64,000 nucleotides of DNA from Veillonella dispar (lineage in GTDB: Bacteria; Bacillota; Negativicutes; Veillonellales; Veillonellaceae). How positions within the stretch are numbered: the stretch's first letter is position 1; the number at the start of each line of letters is the position of its first letter. Positions 42,516-64,000 of the stretch are shown here, in pieces. Made by a program: the position numbers and the translations under genes. The notes under the pieces were generated by a model. The model was given only the letters and a program-made list of their open reading frames with translations. It was not told the origin of the DNA and searched no databases. The stretch lies in NCBI RefSeq assembly GCF_900637515.1, contig NZ_LR134375.1, positions 1,137,952 through 1,201,951 on the forward strand, written 5' to 3'.

Positions 42516-42572
42516 AATTATTATATATTATGAAAAAAATTTATTGTGTATTCCTACAAGAGGGGATTTATT

Positions 42573-44405
42573 ATGTTATCTAGTTTAAAGCAAATTGGGA
42601 GAAACCCCATCTTTCGCTTTGGTATCATTAGTATTGTTTTATATATAGCTCTATTTTTCATCTATGAACCTATTACACTAGGACTAGATGTTGAAGATAT
42701 AACGATTTTAGCAGTACCAACAATTGTAGGTACTTTTTTATTTCAATACTTTATGGGGTGTACCGTTTTTCATAGACCATTTTTAGGATATGGATTAGTT
42801 GGTATTCTTTGGGCTCTTACATTCCCACTCCTTTTCCACTGGTCCTATGTTAAACCTTTATATTTCTATGAATTCGCTAATGACTTCTTATTTGGCCTAC
42901 TCATTTTTATGGGCTTATCTGGAATTCAATTCTTACTAAATCAAACGAATCGCCTTCATAAAACCACATCATTAATCATGGCAATCATTACCATGATATT
43001 AAGTCTTATTCCATTCTTACAAATTGGATACTACTTAACTACATGGCATTGTTTAACGCCAGCTAGTTTACTAGCAGTATATATGACGAACCCAGAAGAA
43101 GCCTTTGGTTTCTTAAAAAATGCTGCCGGTATCCCTGGTCTTATCGCTGTTGGTATAGGTCTTATATTATGGACGTATCTACTCTACTGGTCTAATCTAG
43201 GAATGAAAGCAGTAGTAAACTTAAATACTACACGACCTATGCGCTCTACATTGCTAATTGCATCTATAGTAGCATTCTTAGTATATGTACCATTCTTCTT
43301 ATTCCCTAAAACATGTATTGTAGCAAACTGGATTGCTGCTGGCGATTATGTAAAACAGATGCAACAATATAATGATAACCATCATTTAGTTTTCGATTCC
43401 TTTAATTTAGATACAAAGGAAACCTCTGCCAATAAAACACCAGGTACGATCATATTAGTAATTGGTGAGTCTAGTTCTCGTGATTATATGAAGGTTTATA
43501 ATCCAAACTTCCCTTATGACGATACACCATGGCAAGGTAATATGCGCTCTGATAACAAAGATTTTGTGTTCTTTGATAACGCATATTCATCCTATGTACA
43601 AACAGTACCTACTCTAGAACGCGCTTTATCTGAACGCAATCAATATGATGATAAACCATTCCTTGATTCAGCAAACATCTTAGACGTAGCTAAAAAGGCT
43701 GGTTATACTACTTCTTGGTTTAGTAACCAAGGTGTATTTGGTGAATACGATACAGCCATTTCTCTAATGGCAAAAACAGCAGATACTACAAAATGGTCTC
43801 ACGAATCATATGCATTCTCTGATCGCTATGATGAATCATTATTGCCTTTATTACAATCTGTAGACCCTACGAAAAATAACTTTATCGTTATTCATATCAT
43901 GGGTAGCCATATTTATTACAATGACCGTTACCCTCATGAGTTTAGTAAATGGAAACAAGGCCCATACCCAGATGGCCAAGAAGCATATGCTAATAGCCAA
44001 CTGTATACGGATTGGTTATTACAACAAATCTATACGTATGGTAAGGAAAAATTAAACTTACAAGCTATGGTCTATTTCTCTGACCACGGTGAAAGTTTAG
44101 ATAAATCTCATAACCCAGATACATTTGACTTTGTTATGACTCACATTCCATTCTGGATTTATTTATCTCCTCAATATCGTGCAGCGTATCCTCAAACTGC
44201 AGAGGAACTTACTAAGCACGAACATCAATACTTTACAAATGATTTACTATATGACACATTAATCGGTCTTATGCATGCACCTAACCAACGTTATGATGCA
44301 ACACGAGACTTCAGTAATGATAAGTATCGATTTAATTTACATAACCTTACTACCTTACTAGGGGAACAACCATTAACTAACGATCCTGTAAATGCAGGTA
44401 AATAA
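42573..44405 (+). CDS. phosphoethanolamine transferase-type sulfatase-domain protein
   Basis: A 610-residue inner-membrane enzyme. Seven or so hydrophobic segments fill residues 15-245, followed by an alkaline-phosphatase-fold domain facing the periplasm. Its motifs are LVIGESSSRD (about 295-304, metal-binding Glu299), VQTVPTLERA with candidate nucleophile Thr344, and FSDHGESLDKSH later. Homologues (EptA, CptA, OpgE) transfer phosphoethanolamine from phosphatidylethanolamine to lipid A, core sugars or glucans. GAGGGG before the ATG at 42573 decides the start over the in-frame ATG at 42546. It is monocistronic, and the acceptor is unknown. Confidence 0.85.
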   Translation: MLSSLKQIGRNPIFRFGIISIVLYIALFFIYEPITLGLDVEDITILAVPTIVGTFLFQYFMGCTVFHRPFLGYGLVGILWALTFPLLFHWSYVKPLYFYEFANDFLFGLLIFMGLSGIQFLLNQTNRLHKTTSLIMAIITMILSLIPFLQIGYYLTTWHCLTPASLLAVYMTNPEEAFGFLKNAAGIPGLIAVGIGLILWTYLLYWSNLGMKAVVNLNTTRPMRSTLLIASIVAFLVYVPFFLFPKTCIVANWIAAGDYVKQMQQYNDNHHLVFDSFNLDTKETSANKTPGTIILVIGESSSRDYMKVYNPNFPYDDTPWQGNMRSDNKDFVFFDNAYSSYVQTVPTLERALSERNQYDDKPFLDSANILDVAKKAGYTTSWFSNQGVFGEYDTAISLMAKTADTTKWSHESYAFSDRYDESLLPLLQSVDPTKNNFIVIHIMGSHIYYNDRYPHEFSKWKQGPYPDGQEAYANSQLYTDWLLQQIYTYGKEKLNLQAMVYFSDHGESLDKSHNPDTFDFVMTHIPFWIYLSPQYRAAYPQTAEELTKHEHQYFTNDLLYDTLIGLMHAPNQRYDATRDFSNDKYRFNLHNLTTLLGEQPLTNDPVNAGK

Positions 44406-44983: not shown

Positions 44984-45030
44984 AGTATTATTTAATATGT
45001 AGTATTAAAACTTAATTTACATAAGAAAAA

Positions 45031-45052
45031 AAGACTAACCGAAGTTAGTCTT
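45031..45052 (-). terminator. terminator of the tRNA operon
   Basis: AAGACTAAC pairs with GTTAGTCTT around a UUCG tetraloop, followed by TTTTTTT on the minus strand. It lies 3 bases after the tRNA-Leu CCA end. Confidence 0.9.
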
Positions 45053-45055
45053 AAT

Positions 45056-45144
45056 TGGTGCCGAGGACCGGAATCGAACCGGTACGGTTGTTTCCAACCG
45101 ACGGATTTTAAGTCCGTTGCGTCTGCCTGTTCCGCCACCCCGGC
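45056..45144 (-). tRNA. tRNA-Leu (anticodon UAA)
   Basis: An 89-nucleotide class II tRNA. The acceptor stem GCCGGGG pairs with CCTCGGC, the anticodon loop CTTAAAA presents UAA, and a long variable arm (CGGTTGGAAACAACCG) marks it as leucine. The 3' CCA is encoded. It is the last gene of the five-tRNA unit. Confidence 0.96.
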
Positions 45145-45158
45145 ATGGGTAACGTTTG

Positions 45159-45233
<75 letters not shown>

Positions 45234-45242
45234 ATATAAAGT

Positions 45243-45317
45243 TGGAGCGGGAAACGAGATTCGAACTCGCGACCCCCGCCTTGGCAAGGCGGTGCTCTAC
45301 CGCTGAGCTATTCCCGC
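45243..45317 (-). tRNA. tRNA-Gly (anticodon GCC)
   Basis: 75 nucleotides. GCGGGAA pairs with TTCCCGC, the anticodon loop TTGCCAA presents GCC, and CCA is encoded. Confidence 0.96.
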
Positions 45318-45324
45318 ATGTACA

Positions 45325-45400
<76 letters not shown>

Positions 45401-45405
45401 ATGAA

Positions 45406-45481
45406 TGGCGACCCCGATCAGATTTGAACTGACGATCTTCGCCGTGACAGGGCGACATGTTAACCGCTACACCACGGGGCC
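45406..45481 (-). tRNA. tRNA-Asp (anticodon GUC)
   Basis: 76 nucleotides and first in the operon. GGCCCCG pairs with CGGGGTC, the anticodon loop CTGTCAC presents GUC, the discriminator is G as required for aspartate, and CCA is encoded. Confidence 0.96.
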
Positions 45482-49896: not shown

Positions 49897-50259
49897 TTAT
49901 ACTCCTTCAAATGGAACTCGAACTGCATCATTCCACAACTCTTCTAAACCGTAGAATTCACGCAATTCATCACCACCAAAGACATGACAAATAACATCGC
50001 CAAAATCAAGTAAAATCCATTCCCCTTCACGGTAACCTTCTCTGTGGTTGACTGTCATGCCCAATTCTGCTGCTTTATCTTCCATTTCATCAGCAATACT
50101 TTGAGATTGCTTGATATTATTCGCACTAGCAATTAGGAAGTAATCACCTAACATAGATACACCTTCTAAATCGAGGATTTCAATATCTCTACCTTTTTTA
50201 TCGAAAGCAGCTTGTGCTAATTGTAATACGATTTCTTTAATTTCTTCTTTATTTTTCAT
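49897..50259 (-). CDS. rsfS: ribosomal silencing factor
   Basis: A 120-residue RsfS (YbeB/DUF143) that binds uL14 and blocks subunit joining in starvation. Motifs LDLEGVSMLGDYFLIASA and EGYREGEWILLDFGDVICHVF are complete. It belongs to the conserved group nadD-yqeK-(LCP)-rsfS. Confidence 0.96.
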   Translation of the reverse strand: MKNKEEIKEIVLQLAQAAFDKKGRDIEILDLEGVSMLGDYFLIASANNIKQSQSIADEMEDKAAELGMTVNHREGYREGEWILLDFGDVICHVFGGDELREFYGLEELWNDAVRVPFEGV

Positions 50260-50271
50260 ACTATTCCCCTT

Positions 50272-51393
50272 TTACCGTTTTTTACTACTCTCATCACCAG
50301 GTTCTGTTGGCTTTGTAATAGTCCCACCATTATGTTCTGATTCAGGCGCAACCTTGGCTGTACTATTAGTTGGAGCTGTTACAAATTGTGTCATTTCATT
50401 AGCTGGTAAATTTCCCATCGTAATGCCTACTAATCGTTGTGCTTCCGTAGGATTTACCTTCCAATATGTCATATCTCCTACTAGCTCTTTTTCTCCAGGA
50501 AGAATGTAGAAATGGATTTCTTCCTTATTGATTTTGCTAGCATTATACACAAGCTTAATAGCATCTAAAGTAGAAATATTGCTATCATAATGATCCCAAA
50601 TACGCCAAATATGCCATGCATTTGTTAAGAAGAATGCATTATGCTCTTCTTCTACCCATAGTTTTAAAAAGCGTTCTTGTCGTTGTACACGTGTAAATGT
50701 ATCATGTTTTGGATCAGAATATCTTAAATAAGCCAATGCTTTATCACTATCTAATGTTTGATAGCCTCGTTGCAAATCGATATCTTTATTTCCGTCTGCA
50801 TCCACGTGTTCCATATTTTGTTCTACATAGATTTGTTGATTTCCTAATACATCATTCGTTTTTTTGAAAGCATTTTGGTTAACGACAACATAATATGGTA
50901 TAGAAATATGGAACATATCTTCAATAACAGCTTTTGTTAAATCAATACCACCTTTTTCATAGATGCTATTGAGCATTGTTGCATCAGTCTGATCTCTGTT
51001 ATCAATTTTACTATTACTAGGGATGCCAATAACATCCATAGTCTTTTGATCTAAATTAATAGACAACAAGAATAAGCTATCACTTTGACTTGGATTATTA
51101 TCATCAGTACCGACAACAAGAATATATAACGGTTTATCTAAGCCTTTTTGCTCTACAGATACAGTATTACCATCTTGTTTATTTCCATTATCTCCAGATG
51201 CATCAGTTGATTCGGTAGTACCTACAATAGCTCTATATGCATAAGATACACCAGTATACAAACCGTATCCTATACCGCCAAGTAATGCTACTAGTACAAT
51301 AATAGCTAATATAATTCTAGGCCATTTAACAGATGACTTTTGTTGACGTCTTCTTCTTCGACGGCGAGCTCTTGCTCGTTCACGTTCTTCCAT
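50272..51393 (-). CDS. LytR-CpsA-Psr (LCP) family protein with degenerate active site
   Basis: A 373-residue membrane-anchored LCP protein. An Arg-rich cytoplasmic tail (residues 6-17) precedes one membrane segment (about 25-47), then the extracytoplasmic LCP domain. LYILVVGTDDN (Asp97), SDSLFLLSI and RYSDPKHDTFTRVQRQ (about 224-239) are conserved, but the usual IPRDT motif reads IPSNS (124-128), lacking the Arg and Asp. LCP enzymes ligate lipid-linked glycopolymers to peptidoglycan. The gene lies between yqeK and rsfS, where Firmicutes often carry an LCP gene. Confidence 0.88.
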   Translation of the reverse strand: MEERERARARRRRRRRQQKSSVKWPRIILAIIVLVALLGGIGYGLYTGVSYAYRAIVGTTESTDASGDNGNKQDGNTVSVEQKGLDKPLYILVVGTDDNNPSQSDSLFLLSINLDQKTMDVIGIPSNSKIDNRDQTDATMLNSIYEKGGIDLTKAVIEDMFHISIPYYVVVNQNAFKKTNDVLGNQQIYVEQNMEHVDADGNKDIDLQRGYQTLDSDKALAYLRYSDPKHDTFTRVQRQERFLKLWVEEEHNAFFLTNAWHIWRIWDHYDSNISTLDAIKLVYNASKINKEEIHFYILPGEKELVGDMTYWKVNPTEAQRLVGITMGNLPANEMTQFVTAPTNSTAKVAPESEHNGGTITKPTEPGDESSKKR

Positions 51394-51405: not shown

Positions 51406-51975
51406 TTATTTACAAGATTGTAACACATCATTACGACCAAGAATGGTCAAAGGATAAATAGATTGTTTTTGCTCAATAAGATGAATAATAGTGTTATCAA
51501 AACCAAGCAATACAGCTTTATCTAAATTTTGATCCGCTACTTTACGCAATTCATCAACACCTGGAAAATCTCGATTAGGTTCTATATAGTCTGCTAAGAA
51601 TATAACTTTATCTAGTTTAGACATATGTACCTTACCAGTCGTATGAACCCTAATGGCTTCCAAAACCTCATTATCAGATATGGAAAATTCTTGTTTAGCA
51701 CGAATCATACCGGCTAGTCCATGTAAAAGATTACCATTGCTTAATAATTCTTGATCAGCCTCATAGGATTCAGCACTAACTAGCTTTTGCATTTCCTTCA
51801 GCGAAAGCTCCTTTGCACAATCATGCAACAATGCGGCTAATCTAGCCTTTTCCACATCAACGCCATAAAGTTCAGCTAAATGAGTGGCTGATTCAACAAC
51901 GCCAAGAGTATGCTTAAAACGTTTTTTACTCAACCATTGACTCACGCTAACTTGTATTTCATCAAATGATAACAT
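51406..51975 (-). CDS. yqeK: YqeK-type HD hydrolase (symmetrical Ap4A hydrolase)
   Basis: A 189-residue HD-domain phosphohydrolase. The metal ligands are in RFKHTLGVVESA, LLHDCAKE (HD pair, near residues 49-56), HGLAG and VHTTGK. Homologues cleave diadenosine tetraphosphate to two ADP. It is 3 bases after nadD, the typical pair. Confidence 0.93.
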   Translation of the reverse strand: MLSFDEIQVSVSQWLSKKRFKHTLGVVESATHLAELYGVDVEKARLAALLHDCAKELSLKEMQKLVSAESYEADQELLSNGNLLHGLAGMIRAKQEFSISDNEVLEAIRVHTTGKVHMSKLDKVIFLADYIEPNRDFPGVDELRKVADQNLDKAVLLGFDNTIIHLIEQKQSIYPLTILGRNDVLQSCK

Positions 51976-51978
51976 CCT

Positions 51979-52593
51979 TTATTCCTTCCCATAAATATGG
52001 TTTTCTTCTATATACTCCACTACACATTTAGGCAACATGTACCGAACAGTTTTTCCAGAACGTAACCGCTCTCGCAAATACGTAGCAGATAATTTCATCT
52101 CAGGAACCTCCATAAGATGTATTTTTTCTCGTGCTTTTGGTCCTAAAATATCTAATGTTTCATCAATTGCACTAGATCCATCAGGTCTTGTAGCACCAAT
52201 AAAGTGGACCTCATTTAATAATTCCTCAATAAATTTCCACGTTGGCAACGCACGAATTGTATCCGTTCCCGCTATAAAGTAAAATTCAACATTTGGTCCA
52301 TAGAGCATCTTAAAATGTTGAATCGTATCAACTGTATACGAAGGGCCTTCACGACGCATCTCTACATCAGAAATTTCAAAATTTGGATTATCTGACACGG
52401 CTGCTGCTGTCATAGCATATCGATGATGACTATCTATTACATCATGTTGCTTATGAGGTGGTATCCGTGCTGGCACGAAAATAACCTTCTCAAGGTTAAA
52501 ACTTTCACAAGCCACCTCAGCAATCATTAGATGCCCTAAATGGATAGGATTAAATGTTCCACCTATGATACCTATACGACGTTTCTCTACCAT
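51979..52593 (-). CDS. nadD: nicotinate-nucleotide adenylyltransferase
   Basis: A 204-residue NaMN adenylyltransferase making deamido-NAD. The motif GGTFNPIHLGHL is at residues 10-21 and the C-terminal SATYLRERLRSGK (ISSTxxR equivalent) near 166. It overlaps the 3' end of the small membrane protein gene upstream and is coupled to yqeK downstream. Confidence 0.96.
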   Translation of the reverse strand: MVEKRRIGIIGGTFNPIHLGHLMIAEVACESFNLEKVIFVPARIPPHKQHDVIDSHHRYAMTAAAVSDNPNFEISDVEMRREGPSYTVDTIQHFKMLYGPNVEFYFIAGTDTIRALPTWKFIEELLNEVHFIGATRPDGSSAIDETLDILGPKAREKIHLMEVPEMKLSATYLRERLRSGKTVRYMLPKCVVEYIEENHIYGKE

Positions 52594-57913: not shown

Positions 57914-59119
57914 TTATAAATATCCCATAGGATCAACAGGATCCCCACTTATACGAACTTCAAAATGTACGTGTGGCCCAGTACTATTACCAGTGCTACC
58001 AGCATAGGCAATAACTTGACCTTTAGATACATCTTGTCCTTCAGAGACAGCAAGCTCAGAATTATGGCCATAAAGGGTGGACATACCATTACCATGGTCG
58101 ATAACTACAGCGTAACCATAGCCACCCATCCAACCAGACCAAACAACAGTACCTCCATCAGCAGCATGAACTGGTGTACCTTCATCAACACCAATATCAA
58201 TACCGGAATGGTAGATAGTTGTACCCCAAATTGGATGTGTACGATAGCCATAAGGAGAAGTAATTTCACCACTTACAGGCCAACCAAGTTGACCAGATCC
58301 TTGAACCCAAGAGTAGCTTGGTGCAGACTGTTGAGCCGCAGCTGCCGCTGCTGCTTCTGCAGCTGCACGAGCTGCCGCACGTTCAGCTTGGCGAGCTTTC
58401 AATAATGCTGTAATTTGAGCGGAAGAAGCATTAAGTTCTTCCACTGCTTGCATTGCAGTAGCACGATCATTTTGTGCCTTCTGAAGAACTACCTCCCGTT
58501 CTTTTTTCTTTTGTTCAATTTCAGCTTGTTTTGCTACAGCAGCTTTTTCAAGCTCTACTAGCTTAGCTCGAGATTGCTCAAGAGCCTGTTTACGTGCCGC
58601 AATTTCAGCACGTTCTTTTTTAATTTCATCGATTAACTTGATGTCAGAATCAATGATGCGTTTTAAGATTTCTAATCGATTTGCAAAATCGCTAAAATCT
58701 TTAGAGCCAATGACAACATCTAAATAACTTAGACGTCCATTGATATAAATATCTCGTACACGCTTATAAAATACGGATTCTCGTCCTTCTAAGCGCTTTT
58801 GTGCTTCTGCGAGTAACTTTTCATTAACAGTAATATCATTTTCAACGGCTACACGTTGCTGTTGAATAGATTCTAACTGTTGTTGGGCCTGACGTAATTG
58901 CTCTTCAATTTGTCGCAACTGTTCAGATACACTTACAATAACAGTTTCTGCATCAGCTTTGATAGAGTTTTGTTGATTAACTTGTTGTTGAATTGAATCT
59001 AATTGATTCGTTAAATCCTCATCTTCCGCAGCAATGTATAGTGGTGTTCCCAGTACTACTATACCTGTTAAAATTGTTGCTACAAGACGAGATTTGATTG
59101 TGTTGTATTTCATAAACAT
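57914..59119 (-). CDS. murein hydrolase activator, EnvC-like (M23)
   Basis: A 401-residue secreted protein with a signal peptide (about residues 1-29, ending near IAAEDED), a long coiled coil (30-245, rich in Gln, Glu, Lys) with an Ala-rich stretch, and a C-terminal M23/LytM domain (YHSGIDIGVDEGTPVHAADG... GPHVHFEVR). The His and Asp zinc ligands appear intact, so it may be an active endopeptidase rather than only an activator. FtsEX normally binds the coiled coil of such proteins. The start overlaps ftsX by one base; ATG at 59113 is an alternative. Confidence 0.92.
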   Translation of the reverse strand: MFMKYNTIKSRLVATILTGIVVLGTPLYIAAEDEDLTNQLDSIQQQVNQQNSIKADAETVIVSVSEQLRQIEEQLRQAQQQLESIQQQRVAVENDITVNEKLLAEAQKRLEGRESVFYKRVRDIYINGRLSYLDVVIGSKDFSDFANRLEILKRIIDSDIKLIDEIKKERAEIAARKQALEQSRAKLVELEKAAVAKQAEIEQKKKEREVVLQKAQNDRATAMQAVEELNASSAQITALLKARQAERAAARAAAEAAAAAAAQQSAPSYSWVQGSGQLGWPVSGEITSPYGYRTHPIWGTTIYHSGIDIGVDEGTPVHAADGGTVVWSGWMGGYGYAVVIDHGNGMSTLYGHNSELAVSEGQDVSKGQVIAYAGSTGNSTGPHVHFEVRISGDPVDPMGYL

Positions 59120-60006
59120 TACACCTTCATGTATTGTTTTAAAGAAATCGTACTACCAATAGCACCGACTATAATACCGCCACCTAGAATATAGATAGCC
59201 ACATCATAGAAGAATGGGAACATTGGTACTAATGGGAAGAATGCTAAAGACTCAGAAACTTCCATGGTAATGAAATGGTAAAACTCACCTACACAAAGTA
59301 CGGCAATTACAGCCCCCACTAAGCCCAATAACATACCTTCGATCAAGAATGGCCAACGAATAAAACCATTGGTTGCACCAACATATTTCATGATGGCAAT
59401 TTCTTTACGACGGGCGAATACAGTCAAGCGAATTGTATTAGAAATGATGAATAATGTAGCTGCTGCTAAGAATGCGATTAATACAATACCACCAATTCTG
59501 ATTACTTGAGTAATGCGGAATAGTTCTTCTACAATATCTTGACCATAATGCGTACTTTCAACACCTTGGAATGTAGTGGCTAATTTAGCTGTAGCCTTAA
59601 CATCACTTGGGTTATCAAAGGTTAATACATAAGAGTTTGGCAATGGATTTACATCACCTAATGCATTTACCAATTGTTGTTGATCACCGAGGCGTGCTTT
59701 GAATTCCTTCATAGCTTGCTCTTTATTAACAAACTCTAAATGCTTAAGATTTGGTATAGCTTTAATTTGCTTACCTACAGCCATAATTTGGTCAGTTGTT
59801 AAACCATCTTTTAAATAAATGCTCAATTGAACTTGGTTTTCTAAACTAGATGCCATATTATTCAAATTGATAACACCGCAAAGGAATACACCGAGCATAA
59901 ATAGAGATAAAGCCACTGTAGAAATAGATGCTAACGTCATAAGACCGTTACGCTTCATAGATTTGAGGGCTTCTTTAAAAAAGTATTTCAATGTTCTAGG
60001 CTTCAT
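59119..60006 (-). CDS. ftsX: cell division protein FtsX
   Basis: A 295-residue ABC-type membrane subunit with four membrane segments and an extracytoplasmic loop of about 120 residues between the first two. It has the typical opening YFFKEALKSMKRNGLMTLAS and the cytoplasmic NTIRLTVFARRKEIAIMKYVGATN. I prefer ATG 60006 (GAGGTG nine bases upstream) to the GTG at 60018. With FtsE it controls the M23 protein encoded downstream. Confidence 0.94.
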   Translation of the reverse strand: MKPRTLKYFFKEALKSMKRNGLMTLASISTVALSLFMLGVFLCGVINLNNMASSLENQVQLSIYLKDGLTTDQIMAVGKQIKAIPNLKHLEFVNKEQAMKEFKARLGDQQQLVNALGDVNPLPNSYVLTFDNPSDVKATAKLATTFQGVESTHYGQDIVEELFRITQVIRIGGIVLIAFLAAATLFIISNTIRLTVFARRKEIAIMKYVGATNGFIRWPFLIEGMLLGLVGAVIAVLCVGEFYHFITMEVSESLAFFPLVPMFPFFYDVAIYILGGGIIVGAIGSTISLKQYMKV

Positions 60007-60682
60007 TAATTTCTGCACCTCTCATATTATCACTTTGAACGCGACCATCTTTAAGACGAATAACACGTTTATTTAAATACGAAACAAGATCCATATTATG
60101 GGTAACCATAATAACAGTTGTGCCAAAATTATTGATATGCTTAAACAAATCTACAATACCTTTACTTGTATCAGGATCTAGATTACCAGTCGGTTCATCA
60201 GCAATGAGCACAGAAGGTCGATTTACAATGGCGCGGGCAATAGCAACACGTTGTTGTTCACCACCAGATAAATCCTCTGGTAAATCATTTGCCTTGTCAG
60301 TTAACCCAACAAGCTCTAGTACATGACTTACCTTTTCCTTAATTACCTTTGGTTTTTCTTCAATTACTTCAAGAGCAAAGGCAATATTTTCTGATACCGT
60401 TTTGTTTGGTAATAAACGGAAATCTTGGAATACAACACCAAGTTTTCTACGTAATTTTGGAATTTTACTACGCTTCATACGCGTAACATCAAAATCATCA
60501 ACAATGACAGTACCAGAATCGGGTACTACTTCATGAGTTAACAATTTAAATAGAGTTGATTTCCCTGCACCGCTGTGACCACAAATGAGGACAAATTCGC
60601 CCTCATTTATAGTTAAACACACATCGTCTAATGCAACAGAACCATTATCATAGACTTTACTAACATTCTTAAATTCAATCAT
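59996..60682 (-). CDS. ftsE: cell division ATP-binding protein FtsE
   Basis: A 228-residue ABC ATPase. Walker [10 protein letters not shown] is near residue 35, signature [15 protein letters not shown] near 139 and Walker [13 protein letters not shown] near 160. It overlaps ftsX by 11 bases. The gene ends within the ribosome binding site of ftsX, which suggests coupling. Confidence 0.97.
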
Positions 60683-62498: not shown

Positions 62499-63599
62499 TT
62501 AATAATCTTTAAGTAATGAAATAGCGATTTCTGCATTGCGTTGAGAGTTTAAACGCAATGCTTCAATACGATCATAAGAGGATTGATACTCTTCTCTGGA
62601 ATTTAAGAGCTTATGACATCGCTGATATAGCGCCTCTTCTCTAAGATGTGTCATTGTTCCTATTGGTTCCTGACCAATCATATGTAAGAAGCTTGTAATT
62701 TTAGGATCGTAGGAAATACCGATAACAGGTTTCCCCATTAAAGAGCTAAATACTAGAGCATGAAGACGTATACCAATCATTAGGTCCACATTCCCCGATA
62801 AGGATACTTGTTCCTCTGTAGAGAATGGGCCTTCAAGAACAATAGCCCCCTTCGGCATATAATTAGCGATAATTTTAGCTTCTTTTGTATCCTCTGGATG
62901 AGACATAGGAATAAAAATAATTTCTACCTCATCTTGCTCTTGTAATCGGCTTAACACATTGGCTAATGATTCACGATATTCTGTATCATCTTTCCAACTA
63001 CGAACAGCAACACCAATTCGTTTTGGATTCTCTATAGATTTAGGTAGTTTAGATGTATAGCCTTCTAAAATACGTTTACCAATAGACAAATTTGCCGGTT
63101 GCATAGCCAAAACAGCATCAGCTGTAACCTCTACATCTTCAATTCCTAAGGACTCTAATTCAGATTTTGAAATAGAATCACGAACTGTAATGGTATCCAC
63201 AAATCGCAATATAAAGCTAACAGCTCTTCGTGTAGAGGGACGATTTAAAGGCCCAATACCTTGAGAGTAAAGCATTACCTTTTTTCCCATCATTTTAGCT
63301 AAAGCCATAATACTTAAATAGTAATATGTATTACGAATACTTGTAGCATCTTGTAAAAGACTGCCTCCACCACTGATCACTAAATCAGAATTGGCAATTG
63401 CCTTTAAAATACCAAATGCAGAAAATGTCCCCACTGCATGAATGTTATGTTTTTTGCTTGTCTCTGTAGGATTACCAGAAATAACCGTAATATGCGCATC
63501 TGCTTCCTCTTTGCGAATGGCATCGATAATGGCACAAAGCATTGCTTCATCGCCAGCATTACCAAAACCATAGTAGCCAGAGATAACAATATTACTCAT
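62499..63599 (-). CDS. csaB: polysaccharide pyruvyl transferase CsaB
   Basis: A 366-residue CsaB-family enzyme, which in other Firmicutes adds a ketal pyruvate to wall polysaccharide to make the ligand of SLH domains. It opens IVISGYYGFGNAGDEAML, and has VISGGGSLLQDATSIRNTYYYL near residues 91-112 and a distal MIGIRLHALVFSSLMGKPVIGISYDPK. GGGAGG six bases before ATG 63599 decides the start. It overlaps the DUF5693 gene by 8 bases, a pair often seen together. Confidence 0.93.
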   Translation of the reverse strand: MSNIVISGYYGFGNAGDEAMLCAIIDAIRKEEADAHITVISGNPTETSKKHNIHAVGTFSAFGILKAIANSDLVISGGGSLLQDATSIRNTYYYLSIMALAKMMGKKVMLYSQGIGPLNRPSTRRAVSFILRFVDTITVRDSISKSELESLGIEDVEVTADAVLAMQPANLSIGKRILEGYTSKLPKSIENPKRIGVAVRSWKDDTEYRESLANVLSRLQEQDEVEIIFIPMSHPEDTKEAKIIANYMPKGAIVLEGPFSTEEQVSLSGNVDLMIGIRLHALVFSSLMGKPVIGISYDPKITSFLHMIGQEPIGTMTHLREEALYQRCHKLLNSREEYQSSYDRIEALRLNSQRNAEIAISLLKDY

Positions 63600-64000
63600 G
63601 GTCAACCTCCCGCGCTTGGAACCATTGTGTTACGTACATCATGAAACGTACAGCAATGATAAGAAGCAAACCTAAGAGAGCACCAATTAATAAACCATCA
63701 TATCCACGCATAATAGACATGAATACAGGAGTTCTAATATGACAGAATGTTTCAACCATTGAAGCTATGCCGATAACACCTGCAATAGTTAATAAGAAAT
63801 GGATTACTGTAGGCCATTTACGTAAGAATGCAAACGTAGCCAACATTAATGCTGGGTGACCAATAATGAACTCTTTTTCTCTAGGTCTTGCATACAATGT
63901 ATTTTCAAGGAAACGACGAAGCATAAGTTCAAATCCTGGTACAGGAACACCTGCTGTATGACCACTGCGGCCAACAAATACCCATGCCACGCCACCAAGA
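63592..64000 (-). CDS. DUF5693 membrane protein, 3' part only
   Basis: The last 135 or so residues of a multi-pass membrane protein; the 5' end lies beyond the right edge. It shows WVFVGRSGHTAGVPVPGFEL, then a RPREKEFIIGHPAL motif, then at least three hydrophobic segments. This matches DUF5693, which commonly precedes csaB in Firmicutes. Its role, perhaps in precursor transport or modification for the pyruvylated polymer, is inferred from neighbourhood only. Confidence 0.8.
   Translation of the reverse strand, partial: LGGVAWVFVGRSGHTAGVPVPGFELMLRRFLENTLYARPREKEFIIGHPALMLATFAFLRKWPTVIHFLLTIAGVIGIASMVETFCHIRTPVFMSIMRGYDGLLIGALLGLLLIIAVRFMMYVTQWFQAREVDHE

Follow-up and report, generated by a model that had tools for sequence, protein, structure and literature searches.

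LytR-CpsA-Psr (LCP) proteins have been studied as cell-wall ligases and as drug targets. Among the described members, TagT, TagU and TagV of Bacillus subtilis and LcpA (MsrR) of Staphylococcus aureus are polyisoprenyl-teichoic acid-peptidoglycan transferases.

Several active-site residues of these proteins have been assigned roles in papers that we cite, here and below, from the excerpts available. Arg118 of TagT is the proposed general base and is equivalent to Arg149 in the IPRD motif of Actinomyces oris LcpA, a residue described as essential for both glycosylation and pyrophosphatase activity; R118 is also reported to be important in TagT itself (PMC6381275). R227 of TagT, a proposed stabilizer of the pyrophosphate, equals the essential R266 of A. 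oris LcpA, R95 equals the dispensable R128, and R219 has been proposed to assist peptidoglycan in its attack (PMC6381275; PMC7831098). In S. aureus LcpA, R99, K135, N137, D224 and probably D123 have been placed at the peptidoglycan side (PMC7831098).

From statements in the available parts of these two papers (PMC6381275; PMC7831098) we made a grouping of our own. The five acceptor-side residues, which are catalytic or lie on the peptidoglycan side, are R95, R118, D119, K131 and R219 of TagT. The six donor-side residues, on the carrier or metal side, are D97, D105, R224, R235, R238 and Q239 in the numbering of the protein described here, the LCP protein of Veillonella dispar.

Results

The gene (50272..51393, minus strand) lies in a window of 64,000 nucleotides, the whole stretch of V. 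dispar DNA that was analyzed. It encodes a protein of 373 amino acids, recognized from the list of open reading frames, a PF03816 match and the fold. The gene is part of a run on the minus strand that consists of nadD (51979..52593), yqeK (51406..51975, with an HD domain), the LCP gene and rsfS (49897..50259); we named nadD after the cluster in PMC7549365 and from general knowledge. The LCP gene directly adjoins both neighbors, starting 12 bases after yqeK and stopping 12 bases before rsfS. This synteny has previously been published for Negativicutes (PMC7549365, in the part available).

PF03816 is the sole Pfam domain in the protein (81.6 bits against a curated cut-off of 24.6, E = 8.3e-23), and a profile search of the whole 2.12 Mb genome gave this gene as the single match (E = 1.9e-23). 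The LCP domain, delimited by the PF03816 match and the structural match, covers residues 87–330 (50404..51135, minus strand). Behind an Arg-rich N-terminus, the secondary structure of the model predicts a long helix at residues 24–56 (51226..51324, minus strand), which would serve as a membrane anchor and leave the N-terminus in the cytoplasm.

We modeled the fold with AlphaFold2 from 39 aligned proteins and compared the model by Foldseek and VIA-align. Mean pLDDT was 71.9, with block means of 71–90 across residues 91–330 and values under 50 in the C-terminal tail (residues 335–373). Model residues 80..327 align with TagV (6uf3) at Z 25.1 and an rmsd of 3.0 over 238 residues. Z is also 25.1 to S. 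aureus LcpA with C40-PP-GlcNAc (6uex), 22.8 and 23.2 to TagT with WTA precursors (6mps, 6mpt), and 21.4 to A. oris LcpA (5v8c). The first 26 structural matches are all LCP proteins (Z 16.7–25.1); the first entry outside the family has a Z of 4.2. By domain and fold the protein belongs to the LCP family. A common LCP fold, here taken from a model, is by itself no proof of function.

A sequence-only reading of the locus had claimed that IPRD is replaced by IPSN while the SD and RxxRQ motifs remain, and the alignments bear this out. I124-P125-S126-N127 (51013..51024, minus strand; codons read) stand in place of IPRD. S126 and N127 align with its Arg and Asp (R118 and D119 in TagT), both in HMMER alignments with TagV, TagT, Lin1025 and Lmo1026 and in the alignment with 40 rsfS-linked and 26 unlinked LCP proteins of Negativicutes. 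Arg-Asp occupies this position in all five PDB chains compared (TagV twice, Lin1025, Lmo1026 and TagT), out of 17 matches. A shift in the alignment is ruled out for positions 126 and 127, where three separate MAFFT alignments and HMMER concur.

The replacements extend beyond what the sequence-only reading had noticed, to Q103, M140 and S226. Our TagT numbering was counted from one alignment anchored on R118, and it agrees with R95, R118, R219 and R227 in the available parts of PMC6381275 and PMC7831098. Q103 (51085..51087, minus strand) replaces the Arg of RSD, R95 in TagT. M140 (50974..50976, minus strand) replaces the Lys of KINxAY, K131 in TagT by count and K135 in S. aureus LcpA. The RxR motif has become R224-Y-S226 (50716..50724, minus strand), in which the first Arg is kept (TagT R217) and the second lost (TagT R219). 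Also kept, on the same strand, are R235-x-x-R238-Q239 (50677..50691; TagT R227, R230 and Q231) and two presumed metal ligands, D97 of GxD (51103..51105) and D105 of SD (51079..51081; D97 in TagT numbering).

The V. dispar protein thus lacks three of the tested features of a competent ligase: S126 stands at the IPRD Arg, N127 and M140 stand at the IPRD Asp and the KIN Lys, and S226 takes the place of the second RxR Arg. The Arg of RxxRQ (R235) and the metal Asps D97 and D105 are present. Because of the three missing features, we do not class the protein as a competent LCP glycopolymer-peptidoglycan ligase. It may still work partly like one.

The change is order-wide. Exactly one LCP gene was found in 60 of 61 genomes of the Veillonella order and none in the remaining genome, which is 75% complete. 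At all 60 loci rsfS lies directly downstream on the same strand. Position 126 is S in 28 of these proteins, D in 16, P in 9, G in 3, and R, E, N and A in one each; position 127 is N in 51, D in 5, S in 2, and H and E in one each. Lys never occurs at position 140 (R in 7), position 226 is R in only 4, and position 103 is R in one and K in one. None of the five acceptor-side residues is kept in 49 proteins and a single one in 11, namely D119 in 5 (LPDD), R219 in 4, R118 in 1 and R95 in 1. As all 60 keep at most one of the five, chance, sequencing error or an oddity of one strain is ruled out. The only order member with the IPRD Arg (L004) has the motif IPRN. Among the 38 loci whose species we looked up, IPSN occurs in V. 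parvula SKV38, V. atypica, V. denticariosi and other named Veillonella, LPDN or LPDD in Megasphaera, Anaeroglobus and Colibacter, and LPNN in 'Veillonellaceae bacterium Marseille-P2974'. Among these named records, that of Veillonella sp. T11011-6 comes closest to the V. dispar protein, with 98–99% identity.

The donor side is better preserved: all six residues are kept in 27 of the 60 proteins, five in 27, four in 5 and three in 1. Position 97 is D in 53 of 60, and position 105 is D in 41 and N in 17. Both metal Asps are found together in 36 of 60, the V. dispar protein included, which weakens any claim that the donor side is intact. In family f4, D105 is N in 8/8 proteins of the first sample; hence the metal site is altered there, too.

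Other residues have become nearly fixed within the order: Y90 and W266 (60/60 each), H196 (57/60), R133 (52/60), N127 (51/60) and E240 (50/60). Except for N127, these are rare or absent among 66 LCP proteins outside the order. Ten residues are invariant in 26 diverse order members (Y90, L92, G95, V190, E191, G210, Y222, W266, G300 and W311). R133 (50995..50997, minus strand), seven residues downstream of S126 and in Veillonella usually followed by D134, is a candidate for a relocated active-site Arg, being present in 52/60 order proteins and in 1/66 outside. The sequence-only reading had named an Arg/Asp pair elsewhere in the domain as evidence against it; in view of R133, such a pair is excluded only partly. 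Eight of the 60 proteins do without R133, among them all four of family f3.

We compared these proteins with a class sample of 250 Negativicutes genomes, 53 of the Veillonella order and 197 outside it. The 53 carry one LCP gene each, with best PF03816 E-values of 1.1e-12 to 9.5e-30. The 197 carry one to five, with best E-values of 5.9e-42 to 5.4e-52 and no overlap with the order. From outside the order we aligned 40 rsfS-linked and 26 unlinked LCP proteins (4 of 109 LCP rows were dropped as identical). All five acceptor-side residues are kept in 26/26 unlinked proteins, a count that is partly due to selection since they were taken from the best-scoring matches.

The rsfS-linked proteins outside the order keep all five in 29 of 40. 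Twelve of the 40 rows had also been picked by a high PF03816 score (L040, L043, L044, L047, L103–L110), the other 28 by RsfS score alone (L062–L090 minus L082, which duplicates the LCP sequence of another row). Among the 28, Arg and Asp of IPRD are found in 20 and all five residues in 17. All 11 proteins with fewer than five lie among these 28, and eight belong to family f12. Their eroded motifs include IPQD, ILQD, LPRN, IPRY, IPAT and IPSD, mainly in f12. With 11 of 40 affected, the rsfS-linked copy erodes in several lineages and not only in the order. The lineages concerned retain other strongly scoring LCP proteins. LCP lies upstream of RsfS at 29 of the 30 RsfS loci sampled for this purpose; in the stretch of L061 none was found.

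Is being the only LCP protein enough to explain the loss? Of the genomes outside the order with a single LCP gene, we read G078 and G127 and left out G156 and G165. The two proteins read (L108, L110) keep the Arg-Asp pair and KIN; hence, being the sole LCP protein does not by itself go with residue loss.

In a tree of 105 LCP sequences (quick method, SH-aLRT support), the 39 order members group together as a single clade (support 100). This clade falls within the rsfS-linked proteins, which are separate from the unlinked ones (support 100). Family f8 (L066, IPSD) may be the sister of the order, in a tree that warns of long branches. The stem branch of the order clade is long (1.22). Over the same 79 loci, the ratio of between- to within-group change is the same for RsfS and LCP (2.12 and 2.13). 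Hence, the acceleration of LCP is not gene-specific, and part of the change reflects generally fast evolution.

The LCP gene is under purifying selection, with an omega of about 0.12 as for rsfS. Median omega within Veillonella is 0.119 for the LCP domain, 0.120 for rsfS, 0.065 for nadD and 0.204 for yqeK. These values are rough, with dS near saturation and within the usable range for no more than 29 pairs (whole LCP) or 37 pairs (LCP domain) out of 253. The LCP tail, at 0.93, is free. With equal ratios and equal omega for RsfS, gene-specific acceleration or relaxed selection is unsupported.

We counted 53 positions that 85% or more of the 66 proteins from outside the order share; 21 of these positions are lost in the order. 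The 21 include all five acceptor-side residues (chance p = 0.007) and none of the six donor-side residues (p = 0.04). With so many conserved sites changed, the p-value for losing all five is about 0.007 and no smaller.

Enzymes that could supply a donor polymer persist. A TagA/WecG-family enzyme (PF03808) is encoded in 150/150 class genomes, including 36/36 sampled order members, and CsaB in 149/150, each of the 36 having a single copy. The idea that the donor pathway was lost is therefore unsupported. The V. dispar genome has two PF00953 enzymes. The one at C1:837432 we take to be MraY from its place after a MurF-like gene, which leaves the one at C1:1728427 as the candidate WecA/TagO. TagA- and CsaB-type enzymes could, judging from their families, provide the polymer for the LCP protein; they are of the kind that makes a lipid-linked pyruvylated polymer, and such a product is only putative here. 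The genome also has four Wzy_C matches of the O-antigen ligase/polymerase type (C1:673467, 26004, 1320969 and 37578, the last barely over the cut-off), which are possible alternative ligases.

The TagA/WecG-family enzyme (L111:8013-8735, genome match C1:903189-903689) lies outside the window, presumably between an IMPDH-like gene that precedes it and phospholipid-synthesis-like genes that follow. A CsaB-type polysaccharide pyruvyl transferase lies within the window (62499..63605, minus strand), about 11 kb upstream of the LCP gene on the same strand. With other genes in between, the neighborhood is weak evidence for a functional link. CsaB belongs to a type of pyruvyl transferase that acts for SLH-binding wall polymers. 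It is nearly universal in our Negativicutes sample although OmpM of Negativicutes reportedly binds polyaminated peptidoglycan, unlike other SLH tethers, which bind pyruvylated polymer (PMC10628300, in the part available).

Other genes of the window include a set (57914-60682, minus strand) that ends in an M23 peptidase carrying a coiled-coil domain of PcsB type and whose preceding genes we take to be FtsE- and FtsX-like; it would be an FtsEX-PcsB set of Firmicutes type in a diderm. Five tRNA genes (Leu, Cys, Gly, Phe and Asp) lie at 45056-45481 on the minus strand, and the open reading frames over them (44992-45357 and 45158-45427) are very likely spurious. A membrane protein of the sulfatase family (PF00884) is encoded at 42546-44405 on the plus strand; it presumably resembles a phosphoethanolamine transferase.

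Discussion

Our results suggest that the V. dispar protein is no longer a standard peptidoglycan ligase and acts instead as a binder, regulator or scaffold for a polyprenyl-linked glycan. We give this reading a probability of about one half. Four observations together lead to it: the acceptor-side residues were lost jointly, those of the carrier side were mostly kept, the gene is under constraint, and the protein is the only LCP protein of its genome. As far as alignments can tell, the acceptor-side residues have been replaced together across the order while R224, R235, R238 and Q239 on the carrier side are kept. Most metal-side Asps are kept as well, D97 more often than D105, and the fold is kept under purifying selection.

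If so, the protein would still be located in the inner membrane and point toward the periplasm. It would also remain able to bind a polyprenyl-(pyro)phosphate lipid, which is probably made by a TagO/TagA/CsaB-like pathway. It would not transfer the glycan to MurNAc; its task might instead be to sense this lipid, to act as its scaffold or to hand it over. We propose a history in two steps. The rsfS-linked copy would have been redundant and free to erode while unlinked canonical LCP proteins did the ligation, and the ancestor of the order would have lost the canonical proteins, leaving the remodeled copy; the two steps may have occurred in either sequence.

Several observations do not sit easily with the pseudo-ligase reading. 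There are a few exceptions among the 60 proteins (IPRN in 1, the RxR Arg in 4, LPDD in 5, the RSD Arg in 1, and R at the KIN Lys in 7). The length of the stem branch is not specific to LCP, RsfS having the same ratio, and rsfS-linked erosion is also seen outside the order (11/40). A donor pathway with no other LCP protein would be odd if there were no ligation. And the residues newly fixed in the order look like remodeling to a new use, which could be catalysis.

Because these new residues could be catalytic, the main rival is a transferase with a rebuilt acceptor site, passing a glycan from polyprenyl-PP to a protein, an outer-membrane glycan or a modified peptidoglycan with the help of order-specific residues such as R133, H196 and W266. 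We consider this rather unlikely, though worth taking seriously. Y90, W266, H196, R133 and E240 indeed occur in nearly every protein of the order and seldom or never in the 66 from outside, N127 is constrained (51/60) and not random, donor-type enzymes persist, and A. oris LcpA is reported to glycosylate a protein (PMC6381275). Yet the excerpts of the same study report that the R149A mutation at the equivalent position abolished both activities (PMC6381275), nearly all members have also lost the Lys of KIN and the second Arg in RxR, and R133, absent from 8/60 proteins including all of family f3, is no general replacement.

It is less plausible still that the protein remains a standard peptidoglycan ligase that tolerates its substitutions; we regard this as improbable. 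The fold and the carrier-side Args are kept, both metal Asps are present in 36/60 including V. dispar, and this is the only LCP protein in genomes where TagA/CsaB-type enzymes persist. However, nearly all members have lost not only the general base but other basic residues along with it, Arg-Asp is found in all five PDB chains compared (of 17 matches), and mutating the base alone is reported to kill A. oris LcpA, the base being important in TagT as well (PMC6381275, as excerpted). That the gene is a relic in decay, retained only because it lies in the yqeK-rsfS operon, is already disfavored and the least credible of the readings, with only a few chances in a hundred. It would account for the loss of the active site and for the 11/40 eroded copies outside the order. 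It would not account for a frame that is open in 60/60 genomes, an omega of about 0.12 in Veillonella, and the ten residues, Y90 to W311, that are invariant in 26 diverse members. Deletion of yqeK in V. parvula SKV38 was reported to impair growth; supplying yqeK did not complement the defect, which the authors, in the part available, attributed to possible polar effects downstream (PMC7549365). The genes downstream of yqeK and exposed to such effects are lytR, the LCP gene, and rsfS, which also argues against a relic; the defect is compatible with a role of either and does not tell the two apart.

The sequence-only reading had proposed that the protein changed its substrate or became a regulator, and had related this to the lack of classical teichoic acids in Negativicutes. 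The evidence seems to point toward the proposal and not toward the reason. All 197 sampled genomes outside the order carry LCP genes with a best E-value of 5.9e-42 or lower; since other Negativicutes have canonical LCP proteins, the absence of teichoic acids does not explain the loss. Judging by sequence, the extreme change is confined to one order and does not concern the class as a whole.

A wider and more tentative idea, which we hold to be somewhat less than an even bet, is that a whole order of diderm Firmicutes, with Veillonella, Megasphaera and their kin, turned its last LCP ligase into a new kind of envelope protein. It would hold a polyprenyl-pyrophosphate glycan, with the peptidoglycan-receiving half replaced. 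Its role would be either to sense or chaperone the lipid-linked glycan or to transfer it to an acceptor other than peptidoglycan. If this is true, the fate of the TagA/CsaB-type product would differ from the attachment to peptidoglycan known for such polymers.

In the titles and first lines of abstracts among the matches listed for LCP in Negativicutes, Veillonella or diderm Firmicutes, and for inactive LCP, we found no report of an order-wide loss of the LCP active site. If our main reading is right, the order is a natural case of genomes that have retained TagA- and CsaB-type enzymes although their only LCP protein is without its catalytic side. This makes two things testable in the tractable V. 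parvula SKV38: the role of the non-catalytic parts of LCP proteins and the purpose of the TagA/CsaB-type product in Negativicutes. It is also a warning that not every PF03816 protein should be annotated as a transferase.

How, then, does the protein compare with known systems? With TagT, TagU, TagV and S. aureus LcpA it shares the fold, and with TagT-type transferases the carrier-side Arg and Gln residues and both presumed metal Asps. Unlike them, it is without equivalents of TagT R118, D119, K131, R219 and R95. The rsfS-linked LCP genes of other Negativicutes orders correspond to it in identity and in their location upstream of rsfS, and they form one clade with it. Unlike the Veillonella order, 29 of 40 of these keep all five acceptor-side residues, and most such genomes have further LCP genes.

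For an LCP protein that binds peptidoglycan, LcpA (Psr) of Enterococcus hirae, found at the division site, is a precedent; in the available part of that study, its authors still hold it to be a probable phosphotransferase (PMC5059904). For an acceptor other than peptidoglycan the precedent is A. oris LcpA, whose structure (5v8c) matches our model with the Z of 21.4 given above. Unlike the V. dispar protein, A. oris LcpA keeps its catalytic R149 and R266 and, as far as the excerpts report, needs both (PMC6381275).
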